DNA from: Centipeda infelix ATCC 43532
GTDB lineage: Bacteria; Bacillota; Negativicutes; Selenomonadales; Selenomonadaceae
Direction of reading: 5' to 3'
Length of the DNA: 64,000 nucleotides
Assembly (NCBI RefSeq): GCF_000234095.1
Contig: NZ_JH376798.1
Span: 91,424-155,423, forward strand
Shown here: positions 3,252-60,328 of the stretch, in pieces
Layout of the letters: every line of letters begins with the position of its first letter
How positions within the stretch are numbered: the stretch's first letter is position 1
Program-made: the position numbers and the translations under genes
Notes under the pieces: generated by a model
Database searches by the model: none
Told to the model about the DNA's origin: nothing
What the model saw: the letters and a program-made list of their open reading frames with translations, nothing else

Positions 3252-3270
3252 GTACGATATTCTCTCCTTA

Positions 3271-3431
3271 AGGAAGCACTGATAAATTCAGCACCGCCAT
3301 CTTGACGCATCTTTTTTGCCCGCACTGTGCCCGCGATCCTCCACATAGCTTTGGCTATGCGTCCGGTTTGCCTCCTTGTTCGGACGAAAAAATCTACGCC
3401 AATCTGCAGGACTGTTTTATCAGCGATTCCT
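3271..3431 (-). mobile_element. MITE copy 1
   Basis: A 161-bp element with terminal inverted repeats AGGAAGCACTGATAAA at 3271 and the complement of AGGAATCGCTGATAAA ending at 3431; both ends are flanked by TA. The body is near identical to the other copies (GATTGGCGTAGA, TTCGTCCG, CATAGC-GCTATG hairpin, GCGGGCAAAAAAGATGCG). It carries no gene. It lies in the leader of mqnE, right beside its ribosome site. Confidence 0.9.
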
Positions 3432-3546
3432 TACAACACTCCCGCAAGTGTACCAAATGCGGCGGGATTTTGCAAATTCTGTAGAGCGCACTGCCTTGAC
3501 CCGTATCAAGGCAGGTCTTGTTGCCAAACTTTACCCGAAAGACCTA

Positions 3547-11752: not shown

Positions 11753-11771
11753 GTCGTTGTATATCAGCTGA

Positions 11772-11935
11772 CGGAAGCACTGATAAATTCAGCCGCGCCA
11801 TCTTGACGCATCTTTTTTGCCCGTACTTCGTCGGCAAATCCTCCACATAGCTTTGGCTATGCGTCCGGTTTGCCTCCTTGTTCGGACGAAAAAATCTACG
11901 CCAATCTGACGGACTTCATTTTATCAGCGATTCCT
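11772..11935 (-). mobile_element. MITE copy 2
   Basis: A 164-bp copy in the same orientation as copy 1. The left repeat reads CGGAAGCACTGATAAA (first base changed) and the right repeat ends in ATTCCT at 11935, followed by TA. Its outermost base is the first base of the cyclase stop codon (TAA on the minus strand, 11935-11937). Confidence 0.88.
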
Positions 11936-12702
11936 TACTTCTTCGGCGTAATCGCAAGTGCGCGCACGGGCAGTCCCGTTGCGCCCTCGATGTTCGGCCA
12001 CGCGAGGAAGAGGAGTGCACCCGCAGGTGCCACCCGATCGAGATTTGTCAGCACCTCCACCTGCAGCTTCCCCTTGTCCAGCAGATAACGCTCGCACGCA
12101 AGATCGCCCGCCTTTGCCGCCTCCGCCGAGGCGTCCGTATCCAGCGTCTCATGCCCGCTCGCCGCTGCATTGCGCGTCTCGTAGATGTACTTCAGCGCAT
12201 CCATCGACCAGCCGGGGAAGTGCTCACTGCCGTCCTCTGCCGTGCCGGAGATCGCGTCCATATCCGGCCAATGCCTGCTCCACCCCGTATAGAGCGCGAC
12301 AAACGCACCGTCCGGAATCGCCCCGTACTTCTCCTCGTACGCCTTGATATCCGCCACCGTCACTGCATAGTGCACATCGCGCGCGACCTGCTCCGTCACA
12401 TCGATCACGCACAGCGGATAGAGCATATGCTGCGCCCCATAGGACTCGGCGAGCGGACGATTGCGGACGAAATGCCCCGGAAAATCGATGTGCGTTCCGA
12501 ACTGGCCCGGGAACTTGAACGTCTGGATCAGACAGTCAAGCATCGGATTGCCCCAGTCAAAGCAGGTCTTTGCGAGCTCCACGGATCCCTCGGGAATCCC
12601 CGCCCAAAACGGGCTGTCATTGTTCAGCGGATGCGTCAGATCCACCCACTCATACGTATCGGACTTCAGCTCATCGAGCACATTCCACAGTTGATATGTC
12701 AT
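11935..12702 (-). CDS. Cyclase-family (kynurenine formamidase-like) hydrolase
   Basis: A 255-aa member of the metal-dependent cyclase family (PF04199). The signature metal site is FGTHIDFPGHF, and YEWVDLTHPLNNDSPFW is the usual N-terminal strand. Members hydrolyse amides or lactones such as N-formylkynurenine. The ATG follows AAGGAG. It lies between the second mqnE and a LysR gene, and a sigma-70 promoter overlaps the end of that LysR gene. The stop codon abuts a MITE, so the original C-terminus may have been trimmed. Substrate unknown; a link to the dehydratase genes beyond the regulator is possible. Confidence 0.8.
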   Translation of the reverse strand: MTYQLWNVLDELKSDTYEWVDLTHPLNNDSPFWAGIPEGSVELAKTCFDWGNPMLDCLIQTFKFPGQFGTHIDFPGHFVRNRPLAESYGAQHMLYPLCVIDVTEQVARDVHYAVTVADIKAYEEKYGAIPDGAFVALYTGWSRHWPDMDAISGTAEDGSEHFPGWSMDALKYIYETRNAAASGHETLDTDASAEAAKAGDLACERYLLDKGKLQVEVLTNLDRVAPAGALLFLAWPNIEGATGLPVRALAITPKK

Positions 12703-18228: not shown

Positions 18229-18271
18229 AATAAATGGATTATGTGTTACAATACCCCTACAGGTCAAATTT

Positions 18272-18433
18272 AGGAATCACTGATAAAATGAAGTCCTTCA
18301 GATTGGCGTAGATTTTTCGTCCGAACGAGACGGAAAACCGGACGCAGAGTGGTGCTCTGTGGAGGATTTTCCGCCGAAGTGCGGGCAAAAAAGATGCGTC
18401 AAGATGGAGGTGCTGAATTTATCAGTGCTTCCT
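18272..18433 (+). mobile_element. MITE copy 3
   Basis: A 162-bp copy, left repeat AGGAATCACTGATAAA, right repeat TTTATCAGTGCTTCCT, opposite orientation to copies 1 and 2. It lies 45 nt upstream of the small secreted-protein gene. Together with the terminator at 18183 it fills the 303-nt gap 18176-18478. Confidence 0.9.
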
Positions 18434-18478
18434 TTATGCACATACATCCACAGTCGTCTCAGACCAAAGGAGACTGCC

Positions 18479-19392: not shown

Positions 19393-19476
19393 GAATGTCG
19401 GTCGATGGACACAAAATGATAGAGCAAGATTCTTATCGAACCCTAACTTGATGTTTAGAAAAAAAAGTGTATACTA

Positions 19477-19627
19477 AGAAACCCCTGATAAATTCAGCAC
19501 TGCCATCTTGGCGCCCCCCTGTCTGTGCCCTCAGTCTTCCACATAGCCCTTGCTATACGCGGATTTGTCTTCTTGACAGGAAAAATAGGCATCCATCCGG
19601 CAGACTCTATTTTATCAGCTAGAAAAA
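19477..19627 (-). mobile_element. MITE copy 4, degenerate
   Basis: A diverged copy of about 150 bp, orientation as copy 1. The left end reads AGAAACCCCTGATAAATTCAGCAC and the right end TTTTATCAGCTAGAA. The inner hairpin and the CCATCTTGGCGC block are still recognisable. It fills most of the gap before the chemoreceptor gene. Confidence 0.75.
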
Positions 19628-21850: not shown

Positions 21851-21873
21851 TGTGTGATCGGGAGAATTTTCTA

Positions 21874-22035
21874 GGGAATCGCTGCTACAATGAAATCCGT
21901 CAGATTGGCGTAGATTTTTCGTCCGAACAAGGAGACAAACCAGATGCATAGCAAAGGCTATGTGGGGGATCGATAGTAAAGCGCAGCAAAAAAAGATGCG
22001 CTAAGATAGCGTGGCTGAATTTATCAGTGCTTCCC
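21874..22035 (+). mobile_element. MITE copy 5
   Basis: A 162-bp copy. The outer base pair is G/C instead of A/T (GGGAATCGCTG at the left, GTGCTTCCC at the right), with exact TA on both sides, the clearest target duplication in the window. The left repeat has GCTACAA instead of GATAAAA. It ends 5 nt from the thiW stop codon. Confidence 0.9.
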
Positions 22036-22040
22036 TAACC

Positions 22041-25407: not shown

Positions 25408-25540
25408 CAAAAACGCGGCTATGCCAACTGACATAGCCGCGCTATCTGCACATATATCCCTACGTTGGCATTATCCAAATCAGGTTATGGGTCGGGACGC
25501 ATAATCCCCTCTCAGCCGACTGCTGTCAGCTCCCCTTATT
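25408..25540 (-). promoter_or_regulatory. TPP riboswitch with transcription terminator
   Basis: On the minus strand the aptamer (about 25540-25453) shows the THI-box landmarks AAGGGGAGC, GGCTGAGAGG, CCCGACCCATAACCTGAT, GGATAATGCCAACGTAGGGA. It is followed by a 10-bp stem CGCGGCTATG/CATAGCCGCG (25414-25441) and TTTTT, the classic switch that stops transcription when TPP is bound. It controls cytX-thiM-thiD-thiW. Confidence 0.95.
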
Positions 25541-25603
25541 CTGTTGTGCCTCCACCACCGCTCACGATTCCCTAGCGATGATTTGGTATATTCTCGTCTG
25601 AAA

Positions 25604-26575: not shown

Positions 26576-26613
26576 GTGTATTCCTCCATTTTACTAAAAA
26601 TGTCAGGTTGTTA

Positions 26614-26776
26614 GGGAATCGCTGATAAAATGAAGTCTGTCAGATTGGCACAGATTTTTCTGTCCGATTGAGGCAGCAAACCGGACGCATAGCAGGGCTA
26701 TGTGGAGGATTTGCTAACGAAAAGCGGGCAAAAAAGATGTGCTAAGATGACGGTGCTGAATTTATCAGTGCTTCCT
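26614..26776 (+). mobile_element. MITE copy 6
   Basis: A 163-bp copy flanked by TA on both sides; left end GGGAATCGCTGATAAAA, right end TTTATCAGTGCTTCCT. Its right repeat codes the last residues and the stop codon of the neighbouring TPR gene (CTA AGG AAG CAC TGA read on the minus strand). Confidence 0.9.
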
Positions 26777-27547
26777 TAGCTCCTGTGCGCGCCGATCCGC
26801 CTCGGCAAGCAGCTCCTTCGACACCTCGTCGAAGGGAAGCGCAGGCGTTCCCTGTGCGCTGAGCATATGAGAAACGACGGTCAGGGCTCTGCGGGAGCGC
26901 TCAAACTCCTGCACCATGACAGCGTTCTTGGCAATGATGGGCAGCGCGAGCGCCTCGTCAAAGAGGGCAAGCGCCGCATCGTAGTCCCCGAGGTTCTTGT
27001 ACAGCGTGGAGAGCTCGATGATGAGATACGGTATATAGGAGTCCTCGGGATAGCATGCGAGCGCCCGTCGGTATGCTGCAATCGCCCGCAGCGGATTGTC
27101 CGCTGCCGCCTCGTACGCCATATCCAGCAGGACATCCATGCTCTCCGGCCGCTCCTGTGCGAGGAGCGGTTGCTCCGATACGAGAGCTGCGGCAGGATAC
27201 GCCACAGCGGACACGTCCAGAGGCGCCTTCGCCTCACGGGTCTCTTCATATGCCGTAGGTGCGGGCGCATCGTTCATCGCCGCAGCGGCAGGAATGACGA
27301 CCTCCGCAGAGCAATCTTCACCCAACCCCTCCGATGCAGCGGAGGATGCCTCTGCACGCCGCCGCGCCCGCGCCGTCAAAAAACGATTGTAGAGCGTCAC
27401 CACCAGCCCTGCGCCCGCGATCAGTCCCCCCAGCTGCACATAGTACATCTGCGTGAGCGGCGGCCGCAGCGCGATCATGCCGGCAACGACACCGATGCTT
27501 ATGACAGCGGCGAGAAAGAGCGCAGAAAGACGGATCTGTGTCTGCAT
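26765..27547 (-). CDS. Membrane-anchored TPR protein
   Basis: A 260-aa protein. Two N-terminal membrane helices (LSALFLAAVISIGVVAGMIAL and YVQLGGLIAGAGLVVTLY) are followed by an Ala/Glu-rich linker and a C-terminal TPR region (MDVLLDMAYEAAADNPLRAIAAYRRALACYPED, LIELSTLYKNLGDYDAALALFDEALAL). The ATG at 27547 follows AAAGGGGGACG; an ATG 48 nt upstream has no ribosome site. The final Arg-Lys-His and the stop come from MITE copy 6, so the native end may have been longer or different. Confidence 0.75.
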   Translation of the reverse strand: MQTQIRLSALFLAAVISIGVVAGMIALRPPLTQMYYVQLGGLIAGAGLVVTLYNRFLTARARRRAEASSAASEGLGEDCSAEVVIPAAAAMNDAPAPTAYEETREAKAPLDVSAVAYPAAALVSEQPLLAQERPESMDVLLDMAYEAAADNPLRAIAAYRRALACYPEDSYIPYLIIELSTLYKNLGDYDAALALFDEALALPIIAKNAVMVQEFERSRRALTVVSHMLSAQGTPALPFDEVSKELLAEADRRAQELRKH

Positions 27548-35080: not shown

Positions 35081-35120
35081 TTACAAAAATTCAAAGAATA
35101 TGATACAGTAGGATTGATAT

Positions 35121-35284
35121 AGGAATCGCTGATAAAATGAAGTCCGTCAGATTGGCGTAGATTTTTTCGTCCGAACAAGGAGACAAACCGGACGCATAGC
35201 AAGGGCTATGTGGAGGATTTGTCGACACAGTGCGGGCAAAAAAGATGCGCCAAGATGGCGTGGCTGAATTTATCAGTGTTTCCT
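35121..35284 (+). mobile_element. MITE copy 7
   Basis: A 164-bp copy. The surrounding sequence TATAGGAATCGC to GTGTTTCCTATA extends the inverted repeat symmetrically. It lies inside the leader between the operator at 35065 and the TPM gene at 35320. With the sucD terminator and the operator it accounts for the gap 34964-35319. Confidence 0.9.
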
Positions 35285-35319
35285 ATACAATGGATTCTGT
35301 TTGAAAGGATGTGGAAGGC

Positions 35320-41352: not shown

Positions 41353-41472
41353 GACAATACCCCCTTTTCACTATATAATAAGATATTTATAAGAAAAAGA
41401 AAAGTGATTTAATAACTTTTCCACATAATCTCTCCCATCTGTCCGTTTTCCTTCTCAATCGGATGAATGCTT

Positions 41473-41632
41473 AGGAATCGCTGATAAAATGAAGTCCCTC
41501 AGATTGGCGTAGATTTTTCGTCCGATTGAGGCAGCAAACCGGATGCATCGCCAAAGCTATGTGGAGGATTTGCCAACGAAAAGCGGGCAAAAGATGCGCT
41601 AAGACGGTGCGGCTGAATTGATCAGCACTGTC
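41473..41632 (+). mobile_element. MITE copy 8
   Basis: A copy of about 160 bp. The left repeat AGGAATCGCTGATAAA is intact; the right end has decayed to ATTGATCAGCACTGTC. It fills most of the 323-nt gap 41353-41675; the rest is A+T-rich and empty. Confidence 0.82.
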
Positions 41633-43655: not shown

Positions 43656-43759
43656 TATGAAGTTGGATTATGATTAAAGTCAATAAAGCAACAAAATACA
43701 AACATTACGATACATCCTCATCCTTATTGAAGGATTATTACTTATATTATTCATTTTTC

Positions 43760-46603
43760 TTACGTCGTATGAATATATTTTTTTCTCCGCATTTCAAACG
43801 CATCCATCCCACCTTCCAAAATATCACAAATTTGCTGCTGAATACCCTTCTGATTAAGCACACCTGGAAGGATTTCGTCATTATCCCCACACAATGGTAA
43901 TACATTTTCAATAGCCCCACAGCGGTATTCAAATTGCCTGGAGTTGTTTTTTGCTTCTTTGCCATCCTGATTCGCAATAATGACAGCTTCCGCATCTGCT
44001 CCGATAACAACATTGGCATTATGAGTGACCACAATAATCTGTCGCTCATGTTTCTTATTTCTAAGATACTGAACAAGCTCCGTGTAAATCGATCGATTAT
44101 CCAGGTCATCCTCCGGTTGATCAATAAGAATCGGACACTTCCCCTGCTCCAAATTAACAAGCATCTCCAGCAATACCAACGCCTTTTTCCCCGGGGACAT
44201 TTGATTGATGGTATCCCCTCCGCTTTTTAGGATATAGTGAATATAAAACCAATCTGTAAACATTCGTTCCAATGCGATCTGTTCACTGTTTCCACCTTTC
44301 AAGGACAACCTTTCATCACGAATCCATTCCCAAATGGAATCAAGAAGTTTTTCATCAATGGATTTTATGCTGTCCTTATCAGCAATATTACATCCAATCC
44401 TATCAATAGACGATTTTATTTTTCTATTGTCAAAAAGGCTGGATGACAGATCCGCAAAATCAGCAACTCGCTCACCAATTTCAGCATCAAATTTCAAATC
44501 CTTGTTTTGTGAATCTGTACTTGAAATTTTTTCTTGGAAGGTTTGATATTCAGTTTTTATGCTCTTCCACACATCAATGATTTTACTCTTCAGCTCCTGA
44601 GCTTTAGCTATATTTTCCGCCTTATCCCTTTCCAGTTCTTTCGCCTTCTTCTGCTTTTCTTTCTCCTTTCGCAGCTGATCCTCAAGTTTCTTTAGTCGAT
44701 CATTTTGTAACACACGTTGTTTTAACGGCTTCAGTTCTTTATTGATATTTAAAAGATCTTCAGAAAAATTTTTCTTGTTTTGTGCAAGAACAGTTTGCAT
44801 GGATTGAACATCCTGCTTCCAAATCCTAATAAGCTCCATATTGATACGGTGAATCGTTTGCTTCATCAGCTCTTTTATTATGGACATTTCTTCCAGATCG
44901 TAATGCGGCATCCCATTTGCACCAATCTTCGTAATAGAGGGAATGAATACAAACGGTTCTGCCACATCATGGACTGCAGCATATTCTTTTTTTATCGAAT
45001 GAATGTCATATATTCGATCCACCTGTCTCTTCGCCAATTCCGTATAGTTTTGAAACATCTCCTCCGTAAGACCTGTTTCTGCCGAAAGCAGCTCAAGCTG
45101 TCTCTCCAAGTCCAGAACCATAGGACTATATGCAGCACTTCTCCCATGTTCATCCAGAATGCGTTCACATTTTTCCGCACGATCGACACACTCCACATAA
45201 TCAAGAATATGATGTTTCACTAATTGAATCTTATTTGAGACTTCATTTTTTAGATACTCTTCTGCCTTTTTCAGGTCATCATTTTGCAACAAAACATCGC
45301 GTAAAACATCGTTCAGTTGCGACTCATTTGTTCCTTCGTCCGCAATTCGATTCAACCATGATTGAGGAATATAAATTATTTTTCGTTTTCCTGAAGCACC
45401 ATCTTTCCATACAACCTCAGCTGATTCATCTAATTTTTCCTGTTTCTGGGATACTTTTTCCTCCCTTTCTTGGACTTGGTCAGGATCAATCGTCTTAGCA
45501 AGATGTCGTAAGAGCATCGATTTTCCTGTAGATTTTCCACCAATAATAGCTGTAAGTCCTTCGCTGAAATAAATCGGGTCTTGCATAAAATATGTTGACT
45601 GAAATTGGATGTAATCTATCACTTGGTGTGCATCTTTTTCATCAGGTTTTTCCTCTTGAATCCGCACACGCTCCTCCGGCTCATAGAGAATTTGCTGCAG
45701 TCCTTCAAAGGTTGGTTCAGCCTTAATCCAACAAAATTTGTCCTCGTCAGGAGCAAACATTCTTTCATAGGAATGTGCATCAGAGCCCCATATACAGGGT
45801 TTGATTGAACGAAACTCATCTATTTGCTCTTCCTCATGTCCTTTTGCCAATGCCCATTCCCTCGTTCGAGAATTCGATGTCATGAGCAAATCACTCTGCG
45901 CATATATTGCTTGCCTTGTATCGTGATCCCGCCCTCTCCATTGAATGTTAGACAGATCTTCATCCACAGGAACAGAAATAAAATATTGTCCCTTGAAGAT
46001 GATGTTACTCATCAAAACCTCTTGGATTTTTTCGTAATTGACTGTTATTTTTTCAAGCCCTATTAAATAATCGTTACCTGTAGCATTATTATGTTCCTTA
46101 TATCTGCGTCCCACATCTTCTATATTCATCCTGTTTAACGATAGTTTAGAACAATCCGGACGTAATATTTCGATTTTTCCCAAAAACTCACTCTCTATCC
46201 TTTCAACAGGAAATTTATCTGAGAAAAAGACATGATAGTTCACCGAATGAGCTTTTTCTCCAACAAAAGTATTAAGGCGAAACTCAATATTGGGAAAAAC
46301 AAAAATTTCTTCTACGCTCTTTCGCAATTTATCATCCGGAAACAACATACGCATCTTATCCGGCTTTGAGAGATATTCCTCCCTGATTTTCTTATAGCCA
46401 TCAATTGAAAAATAATCGCTCACACCGATCGCAACAATACCACACTGCACAGCTTTTTCAAAAAGCGTTTTTACAAAATTATCAAAGTGTTCTCCTCTAT
46501 GATCCTCCTCTATATTAAATCCAAACTCATTATTCAGTATAGAATACGGCGTATGGACATGAAAATCCCATCTATTCCATGTAGATCCTCTTTCAATGCA
46601 CAT
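43760..46603 (-). CDS. PHP-domain/SMC-like ATPase (TrlF-like), BREX-linked
   Basis: A 947-aa protein; the ATG at 46603 follows GAAGGAGG. Residues 1-300 form a PHP phosphoesterase domain with the metal motifs DFHVHTPYS (His15, His17), GVSDYFSIDGY and IWGSDAHSYER. Residues about 330-947 form an SMC/RecN-type ATPase: Walker A GGKSTGKS at about 355, a long coiled coil (residues about 450-750), and near the C-terminus ILIDQPEDDLDNRSIYTELVQYLRNKKHERQIIVVTHNANV (Walker B and H-loop). The order matches what I recall as the TrlF family found in defence loci. It is visibly richer in A+T than the genes on both sides, so it was probably added to the island separately. It is the last gene of the leftward row. 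Confidence 0.85.
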   Translation of the reverse strand: MCIERGSTWNRWDFHVHTPYSILNNEFGFNIEEDHRGEHFDNFVKTLFEKAVQCGIVAIGVSDYFSIDGYKKIREEYLSKPDKMRMLFPDDKLRKSVEEIFVFPNIEFRLNTFVGEKAHSVNYHVFFSDKFPVERIESEFLGKIEILRPDCSKLSLNRMNIEDVGRRYKEHNNATGNDYLIGLEKITVNYEKIQEVLMSNIIFKGQYFISVPVDEDLSNIQWRGRDHDTRQAIYAQSDLLMTSNSRTREWALAKGHEEEQIDEFRSIKPCIWGSDAHSYERMFAPDEDKFCWIKAEPTFEGLQQILYEPEERVRIQEEKPDEKDAHQVIDYIQFQSTYFMQDPIYFSEGLTAIIGGKSTGKSMLLRHLAKTIDPDQVQEREEKVSQKQEKLDESAEVVWKDGASGKRKIIYIPQSWLNRIADEGTNESQLNDVLRDVLLQNDDLKKAEEYLKNEVSNKIQLVKHHILDYVECVDRAEKCERILDEHGRSAAYSPMVLDLERQLELLSAETGLTEEMFQNYTELAKRQVDRIYDIHSIKKEYAAVHDVAEPFVFIPSITKIGANGMPHYDLEEMSIIKELMKQTIHRINMELIRIWKQDVQSMQTVLAQNKKNFSEDLLNINKELKPLKQRVLQNDRLKKLEDQLRKEKEKQKKAKELERDKAENIAKAQELKSKIIDVWKSIKTEYQTFQEKISSTDSQNKDLKFDAEIGERVADFADLSSSLFDNRKIKSSIDRIGCNIADKDSIKSIDEKLLDSIWEWIRDERLSLKGGNSEQIALERMFTDWFYIHYILKSGGDTINQMSPGKKALVLLEMLVNLEQGKCPILIDQPEDDLDNRSIYTELVQYLRNKKHERQIIVVTHNANVVIGADAEAVIIANQDGKEAKNNSRQFEYRCGAIENVLPLCGDNDEILPGVLNQKGIQQQICDILEGGMDAFEMRRKKYIHTT

Positions 46604-46643
46604 AATACATCCTCCTTCATTTACCGAAAAACATTTTTTCTTC

Positions 46644-47789
46644 TCAAATTCCCCGAATCTTTCCAACAGCCCCCACAATCGCTCGCACCACATCATCAGC
46701 ATCCTGTCCCGTGGTCTCCCGTCCATAGGAGATGCGCAGTGCTTCCATTGCCTCCTTCTCACTGTACCCCATTGCAAGAAGTACATGAGACGGCACATCC
46801 GCCCCTGCGTTGCAGGCAGATGCCGCCGAAACACAAATGCCCTTGAGATCGAGCAAATGCACAAGGGACTCTCCTCGCACACCGGGAACGCCAATGTTCA
46901 CCAGCCCCGGCAGGTGCCCACCGCCTTCTCCATGCACACGTATCTCGGGCAGATTCTCCCGAATCTCCTGCACCGTACATGATACAAGCCCATGTAGACG
47001 CACGGCCTCATCCGCCATACATTCACAGCTCTCCGTCAGAGCCTCGCCCAACGCGACAATCCCCGCCGTGTTCTCCGTCCCCGCACGCAGTCCGTGCTCC
47101 TGCCCGCCACCCGCAATCAGCGCGGGCAGCTCTGCGCCTGGCTTTTGATAGAGGAATCCCGCCCCCTTCATCCCGTAGAATTTATGCCCCGATGCTGTGA
47201 GATACGTTACGCCGAGTTCCCGAACATCAACGGGAATATGCCCGACCGCCTGTACCGCATCGGTGTGAAAGGGGATGCCGCGCCCCGCCAACGCTTCGGC
47301 AATCTCAGCAATGGGCTGCACCGTCCCCACCTCGTTATTGGCAAGCATAACAGACACTAGACGAGTATCCGTGCGTAGTGCACCGATAACAGACGCAGAC
47401 GAAACGCGCCCCGCTCGCGAAACAGGCAGATATGAGATCGCTGCACCGCACTGCTCCAAAGCCCTACACGCCATGAGAATCGAAGGATGCTCGATCGCAC
47501 TCACAACGATATGCACAGACTTGCTGCCCTGTTGCCGCGCCGCCTCCACCACACCGCGCAGAACCGTATTGTTCCCCTCTGAGCCCCCCGCCGTAAACAC
47601 GATCTCCGCCGCGTGCGCTCCAACAGCGCACGCCACTTGTTCACGCGCCCACTCGACAGCTTTTCGCGCCTGCTTGCCAAACGAATAGGCACTCGATGCA
47701 TTCCCGTAGTTCTCCCGAAAAAAAGGCAAAGCGGCAGCAAGCGCTCTCTCTGAGAGCGCGGTCGTCGCCGCGTGATCCGCATATATCAT
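46644..47789 (-). CDS. Cysteine desulfurase of the BREX island
   Basis: A 381-aa PLP enzyme of the NifS/IscS family: YADHAATTALSERALAAALPFF, NASSAYSFGKQAR, FTAGGSEGNNTVLRG, SAIEHPS, the PLP Lys203 in SGHKFYGMKGAGFLY, RAGTENTAGIVALG, and the sulfur-carrying Cys326 in SAASACNAGADVPSHVLLAMG. In Dnd and Ssp systems such an enzyme (DndA/SspA) supplies sulfur for DNA phosphorothioation. Its place behind brxL and the zinc-ribbon gene suggests the same job for BrxP here. The ATG at 47789 is chosen for homology; GTG 47801 is an alternative. Confidence 0.92.
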   Translation of the reverse strand: MIYADHAATTALSERALAAALPFFRENYGNASSAYSFGKQARKAVEWAREQVACAVGAHAAEIVFTAGGSEGNNTVLRGVVEAARQQGSKSVHIVVSAIEHPSILMACRALEQCGAAISYLPVSRAGRVSSASVIGALRTDTRLVSVMLANNEVGTVQPIAEIAEALAGRGIPFHTDAVQAVGHIPVDVRELGVTYLTASGHKFYGMKGAGFLYQKPGAELPALIAGGGQEHGLRAGTENTAGIVALGEALTESCECMADEAVRLHGLVSCTVQEIRENLPEIRVHGEGGGHLPGLVNIGVPGVRGESLVHLLDLKGICVSAASACNAGADVPSHVLLAMGYSEKEAMEALRISYGRETTGQDADDVVRAIVGAVGKIRGI

Positions 47790-59775: not shown

Positions 59776-59993
59776 GCTCATCGACTTTTTGTCTTTTATA
59801 TGATATAATAATAAAAAAGTATTTTTAAGTGTAGCGAATCTTGGGAATTTCAGCTCCATCGCGTCATTTCTAACCACCTTGGTCATTCAGGTTTATCCTG
59901 CTTGTAAAACAAGGCTCAAGAAGATGTTTGTTCTGATCGGAGGATTTCTTATGACGGCTTGTACTTTATTGGCGGGGTATGATAGCGCATTGC

Positions 59994-60091
59994 GGGGTTA
60001 ATGCCAATAATGGGAGCAATAGTCGAGAGAGGCTGCACTTTTCAAAATAGCAAAGCGCTATGGCAAGGTTCAAGTCCTTGTGACCCCGCCA
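59994..60091 (+). ncRNA. tRNA-like RNA with CCA end, no standard anticodon arm
   Basis: The 3' half is canonical. The T stem CAAGG/CCTTG (60064-60068, 60076-60080) has loop TTCAAGT and is followed directly by acceptor strand TGACCCC (60081-60087), discriminator G and encoded CCA. TGACCCC pairs with GGGGTTA at 59994-60000, and the helix can extend by two more pairs. A D-like arm is TGC/GCA (60002-60004, 60016-60018) with GGG in the loop. The next hairpin (60020-60035) has a six-base GAGAGA loop without U33. A further stem is ATAGC/GCTAT (60047-60061). A -10 box TATGAT ends at 59983 and a terminator follows at 60101. It could be a tRNA pseudogene, an unusual long tRNA, or a tRNA mimic. Confidence 0.55.
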
Positions 60092-60100
60092 GATAATCAC

Positions 60101-60125
60101 AACATCCGTCAATCGGATGTTTTAT
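60101..60125 (+). terminator. Terminator of the tRNA-like RNA
   Basis: An 8-bp perfect stem AACATCCG/CGGATGTT with a TCAAT loop, followed by TTATA. It lies 10 nt after the CCA. Confidence 0.75.
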
Positions 60126-60152
60126 ACATGCCCCTCTAGAGGCCCATAACCG

Positions 60153-60191
60153 AAGGCTGTTGCACTCGTATCAACGTGTGACAGCCTTTTT
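60153..60191 (+). terminator. Second hairpin with T tract
   Basis: AAGGCTGTTGCAC pairs with GTGTGACAGCCTT (two mismatches), followed by TTTG. It contains the GGCTGTTGCAC word of the inverted repeat at 40-87. The remaining gap 60192-60328 is A+T-rich and empty. Confidence 0.55.
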
Positions 60192-60328
60192 GACGCACAA
60201 CACCTTTAACCGACTCGGCCATTAGGCTATTTTCTTTCATAGTATTAAGCATATTTTACAACTTGCAGATTATGTCAGTTGTGACCATATCAAATTCATT
60301 CGTATTCCCTCATCTCATTTCTCCCTGC

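Follow-up and report, generated by a model that had tools for sequence, protein, structure and literature searches.

Gene content of the locus and limits of the acquired region

A stretch of 64,000 nt from Centipeda infelix ATCC 43532 (contig NZ_JH376798.1), hereafter the window, was analyzed, and all positions refer to it. The window carries a type 4 BREX operon comprising a gene for a 479-aa protein, BrxP, BrxC, PglZ-4, BrxL, a DndA/SspA-like cysteine desulfurase and a TrlF-family ATPase (Table 1). A cysteine desulfurase in type 4 BREX is as reported in PMC12839542. The first gene of the operon was conserved across phyla, with 123 confirmed stretches in a scan of species genomes. On sequence grounds it is an unmodelled BREX-4 component, and perhaps the counterpart of DUF4007/SspB.

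The related BREX locus in genome G002 was homologous up to 59775. Homology to the BREX-less site of genome G010 stopped near 43660 on the left and started at 60239 on the right. The tRNA-like gene that a first-pass annotation had noted upstream of the operon therefore lies within 463 bp of unique sequence that close the acquired region on its right side, and the junction with the relatives (60239) is 148 bp beyond its CCA. Its orientation was confirmed as opposite to that of the BREX genes, the first of which (minus strand) is divergent from it (plus strand). No integrase was identified in the island, where the genes matched to family libraries were the BREX genes, the cysteine desulfurase and the TrlF ATPase.

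Two other kinds of element were recorded in the window. The 64 kb contain at least seven copies of a dispersed repeat of about 165 bp, which occurs in relatives too. Its ends are inverted (GGAATCGCTGATAAAAT...ATTTATCAGTGCTTCC), and 5/7 copies were predicted to form one long hairpin (-70 to -84 kcal/mol) in which the loop arms vary and the pairing is kept; on these models it would be either MITE-like or a selected RNA hairpin. A TPP riboswitch was matched at 25440-25546 on the minus strand (Rfam, 61 bits).

Table 1. Positions of the features discussed in the text, as window coordinates.
Feature	Positions	Strand	Basis or remarks
Repeat of about 165 bp	3265-3436, 11770-11940, 18270-18438, 21868-22038, 26611-26778, 35118-35287, 41470-41627; weaker 19475-19619		
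TrlF-family ATPase, immediately after the cysteine desulfurase gene of BREX-4	43760-46894	-	NF045780, E 1.7e-165
First BREX-4 gene, 479 aa	58286-59725	-	no Pfam, NCBIfam or PADLOC model
Promoter-like site for the divergent BREX operon	59775-59748	-	promoter scan
Unique segment, 463 bp, from BREX operon to conserved flank	59776-60238		limits of homology to G002 and G010
Promoter-like TCGACT-17-TATAAT, extended -10 (TG)	59781-59809	+	promoter scan
Alternative fold (P1 + P2 + T arm)	59970-60091	+	z -3.96; 0/200 shuffles as stable
P1, TGGCGGGGT/ACCCCGCCA, 9 bp	59970-59978/60083-60091	+	chance 0.0015
TATGAT, -10-like	59978-59983	+	ends 10 nt before acceptor; no -35 partner
P2, ATAGCGC/GCGCTAT, 7 bp	59982-59988/60055-60061	+	chance 0.04
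tRNA-like gene, 98-nt reading	59994-60091	+	sequence
5' acceptor strand GGGGTTA	59994-60000	+	pairs with TGACCCC, 60081-60087
D-arm-like segment ATGCCAATAATGGGAGCAA	60001-60019	+	alignment to host tRNA-Trp TAGCTCAATTGGTAGAGCAA
43-nt middle, where a tRNA has its anticodon arm and variable loop	60020-60062	+	hairpins GTC-GAGAGA-GGC and ATAGC-AAAGC-GCTAT
Canonical T arm CAAGG-TTCAAGT-CCTTG	60064-60080	+	sequence; 3' half nearest tRNA-Trp
3' acceptor strand TGACCCC, then G73, CCA	60081-60087, 60088, 60089-60091	+	sequence
Hairpin with TTTTATA tail (weak terminator)	60101-60121, tail to 60125	+	-10.4 kcal/mol, z -4.7
Second hairpin with TTTTT, better terminator candidate	60152-60191	+	-20.2 kcal/mol, z -5.1

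Anatomy of the tRNA-like gene

The canonical T arm, 7-bp acceptor stem, discriminator and encoded CCA of the first-pass annotation were all present in the sequence, one of the seven acceptor pairs being G-U. For a T-arm consensus whose stem pairs and whose CCA is correctly spaced, the expected number per 64-kb window was put at about 2e-4, which is an estimate and not a tool result; an in-register 7-bp acceptor strand was found in 4.6% of dinucleotide shuffles. As had been claimed, other hairpins can be drawn in the middle, two of them, but its structure did not exceed chance (z -0.2). An acceptor-like or 5'-end-like extra copy, GCGGGGTATG, lies at 59972, 20 nt upstream of the gene, and this second copy suggests rearrangement.

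ARAGORN with default settings returned no tRNA anywhere in the window. With the Rfam tRNA model the gene was unreported at E<=10 (301 bases), and the genome-wide covariance search at E<=1 gave 57 other loci. The relaxed ARAGORN run that had been proposed did yield a call at the 95% threshold, an 80-nt 'tRNA-SeC(tca)' at 60012-60091, but this reading starts at 60012 and not at 59994, and is drawn with four stem mismatches (two acceptor, two anticodon-stem), a 6-nt D loop and a 7-nt loop TTTCAAA. The statement that no normal seven-base anticodon loop can be drawn therefore holds for the 98-nt reading and has this mismatched drawing as its exception. An anticodon arm with a 5-bp stem and a 7-nt loop was obtained neither by ARAGORN nor by folding. 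Since a sound anticodon arm is absent, a working, oddly long tRNA, one of the options first considered, is unlikely.

Other known RNA classes were tried and rejected. For tRNA-Sec, the gene was missing among the 27 RF01852 matches at E<=10 in its own genome and showed neither an 8-bp acceptor nor a UCA anticodon arm. A relaxed-threshold ARAGORN tmRNA search gave no tmRNA, and there was no model match and no tag frame. A bacterial Y RNA was set aside as the genome encodes no TROVE (Ro/Rsr) protein, and an allo-tRNA as the acceptor branch is 7/5, not 8/4 or 9/3, and Trp-like, without Ser identity. Among known Rfam families only mascRNA (14 bits) and snoRNA appeared, both sub-threshold. A mobile repeat with terminal inverted repeats (TTAT-TGGCGGGGT ... 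ACCCCGCCAGATAA) was rejected, with one copy in the genome.

Ancestry and distribution

The last 40 nt (3' half) scored against tRNA-Trp of the class at a level that none of 1500 random window segments reached against any tRNA. By blast against the class and phylum genomes, 8/9 matches to intact tRNAs were to tRNA-Trp 3' ends, the ninth being to tRNA-Met, and the sole phage match of the gene was a phage tRNA-Trp. The 3' half with 8 nt of trailer was 88% identical over 33 nt to a tRNA-Trp locus of another genus. Independently of the 3' half, the 5' 31 nt, which include the acceptor and D-like parts, scored highest with host tRNA-Trp among 52 tRNAs (P 0.01 for a Trp match, 0.025 for a match to any tRNA). 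Because 3.8% of random window segments equaled the score of this half against the tRNA set, its Trp match is moderate evidence only. The 43-nt middle had no similarity to the tRNAs of the genome, and 97% of random segments scored equally. Compared with tRNA-Trp (e.g. GGGGGTA/TGCCCCC), the acceptor GGGGTTA/TGACCCC shows an apparent paired change from G-C to U-A.

An intact tRNA-Trp is present in the host at C1:828-903, and the usual amino acids are all served by tRNAs. For the 3' half this host gene is no close parent, and no intact tRNA in the genome shares the 3' end of the gene.

The gene was single-copy in the genome. No homologues were found in 380 genomes of the class (blast, covariance model), in 398 genomes sampled across the phylum, in viral contigs (exact scans), or in phages or plasmids, and a 21-nt core had no exact match in about 85,000 species genomes. 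Weak matches of the middle or acceptor inside coding genes of the same genome were taken as chance. A literature search for a tRNA-like RNA with BREX gave no precedent among the open-access papers listed.

Comparison with other BREX loci

The first BREX gene was present at all 109 loci of the comparison set, and brxP was in the flank of 98/109. Homologues beside other BREX islands, a check suggested at the outset, were sought with the covariance model and a T-arm scan, and the tRNA-like RNA was in 0/109 loci. The proposal of a tRNA mimic linked to defence is therefore unsupported as regards the link.

tRNA sequences were met at two of these loci. At L163, an intact tRNA-Thr precedes the matched first BREX gene by about 290 bp. 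At L166 (Clostridia bacterium), the 3' half of a tRNA, from anticodon stem to CCA and without the 5' half, is at 2715-2752, about 250 bp upstream of the first BREX-4 gene and preceded by short tandem repeats; from its sequence it looks like an insertion scar. From these two cases, BREX-4 operons do come to lie beside tRNAs, and fragments remain at such places.

Transcription signals and competing folds

The TATGAT box was found 10 nt ahead of the acceptor, as annotated, but the promoter scan gave it no -35 partner. The promoter-like site at 59781-59809 beat it in the scan, with a predicted transcript of about 310 nt. Similarly, the hairpin with a T tail annotated as a terminator 10 nt after the CCA is present, but it was rejected by the terminator scan.

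A transcript from about 59990 was predicted to fold unforced into a tRNA-like body (-32.6 kcal/mol, z -2.0) built from the acceptor and T arm, a small D-like arm, a variable-arm hairpin and one further arm. Extending the transcript by about 25 nt at its 5' side favoured a different fold by about 13 kcal/mol. This alternative fold sequesters the acceptor strand and the CCA. P1 may simply be a consequence of the duplicated 5' acceptor strand. The modeled stability of the P1/P2 fold is the chief evidence against plain decay.

An open frame on the plus strand, 59804-60001, ends inside the tRNA-like gene (...LMTACTLLAGYDSALRG). It has a good Shine-Dalgarno, GGAGG, 7 nt, before ATG 59951 and a lipobox-like LMTAC. 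A tiny lipoprotein or leader peptide is possible from these motifs; as a small lipoprotein the frame was rejected, its sole match being a poor plasmid one (E 4).

Origin of the tRNA-like gene

The gene is probably a rearranged tRNA(Trp)-like relic, non-decoding and without a role in BREX. This reading is best supported because each half resembles tRNA-Trp, with an unrelated middle between them, because the segment around the gene is unique and borders an island gained by horizontal transfer, and because a tRNA or tRNA 3' half occupies the same place in two other BREX-4 loci. The source would have been a foreign tRNA, phage- or island-borne. A rearrangement would have removed the true anticodon arm and variable loop and kept the acceptor, D-like and T parts, and the relic would have come to rest in the 463 bp of filler that separate the old chromosome from the acquired BREX-4 operon. 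Any transcript would at most undergo tRNA-like end processing, with no decoding. The relic of island integration first proposed thus survives as the best-supported option, but a matching intact tRNA and an integrase, which integration at a tRNA would lead one to look for, were not identified. The acceptor and T stems are perfectly paired, though free decay should have struck both, and the promoter-like and terminator-like flanks and a P1/P2 fold predicted to be more stable than 200/200 shuffles also count against a relic, as do the moderate significance of the 5' match to Trp and the distance of the host tRNA-Trp from the 3' half.

A working small RNA that mimics a tRNA is a putative reading that we consider unlikely. 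It would be an RNA of about 310 nt (from the 59781 promoter) or about 100 nt (from TATGAT), in the P1/P2/T-arm fold or as a tRNA-like body, and could bind tRNA-handling proteins or, as a decoy, divert a tRNA-cutting enzyme. The fold and pairing statistics (Table 1), the promoter-like site with the two hairpins, and a TrlF-family ATPase in the same island are consistent with it; the lack of a homologue in the 380 class and 398 phylum genomes, viral contigs, phages and plasmids argues against it, and P1 may stem merely from the duplicated acceptor strand. Its more specific form, a dedicated tRNA(Trp) mimic divergent from BREX-4 that would switch between tRNA-like and sequestered folds as a decoy or sensor for tRNA-directed defence of the island, is very unlikely. 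An attachment-site scar, in which an integrase duplicated the 3' part of a tRNA at island entry and the DNA upstream of the T arm is island DNA, would be in keeping with the tRNA 3' half that closely precedes the first BREX-4 gene at L166 and with the resemblance of 3' half and trailer to the tRNA-Trp locus of another genus. Since neither parent tRNA nor integrase was found (the genome has no intact tRNA of this 3' end, the window no tRNA and the island no identified integrase), a scar is possible and rather improbable; the junction of the relatives, 148 bp past the CCA, and the Trp-like 5' side also speak against it. Chance resemblance in intergenic DNA could be suspected from the many windows scanned and the low tRNA covariance scores, and is highly improbable given a T arm, acceptor, G73 and CCA in register and Trp-best matches for both halves.

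If the gene is a relic, it is a further example of debris derived from a tRNA along the border of a defence island, and gives a clue to the movement of BREX-4 operons, two other BREX-4 loci being at a tRNA or tRNA fragment. Were it instead to work as a mimic, a tRNA-shaped RNA lacking any decoding end would stand next to a defence system, as a candidate decoy. As an orphan of one genome, it opens no old question alone.

Comparison with known systems

The gene resembles bacterial tRNA-Trp in acceptor length, G73, encoded CCA, T arm, a D-loop-like segment and the best match of both halves. It differs in having no CCA anticodon arm and 43 unrelated middle nucleotides, and in not being scored as a tRNA. 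Like tRNA 3'-half scars at island attachment sites, it retains an unbroken T arm and 3' acceptor strand where a BREX-4 island ends, L166 being the example; here, unlike in such scars, there is no parent tRNA or integrase, and the 5' half is also tRNA-like. The alternative fold has the topology of tmRNA and of the bacterial Y RNA YrlA, in which a closing helix is combined with a long arm and with a T arm. The gene differs from both, with no tmRNA call, no tag frame and no TROVE/Rsr protein in the genome. Irregular allo-tRNA-like sequences and allo-tRNA(UAU) pseudogenes, reviewed in PMC7609411 with reference to Mukai et al. 2017, combine the top half of a tRNA with extra hairpins or a five-stem junction and with disrupted pairs, are translation-incompetent and have a suspected link to mobile elements, all of which the gene has in common with them. 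It differs in its 7/5 acceptor branch, where theirs is 8/4 or 9/3, is Trp-like and not Ser-like, and is a lone orphan.
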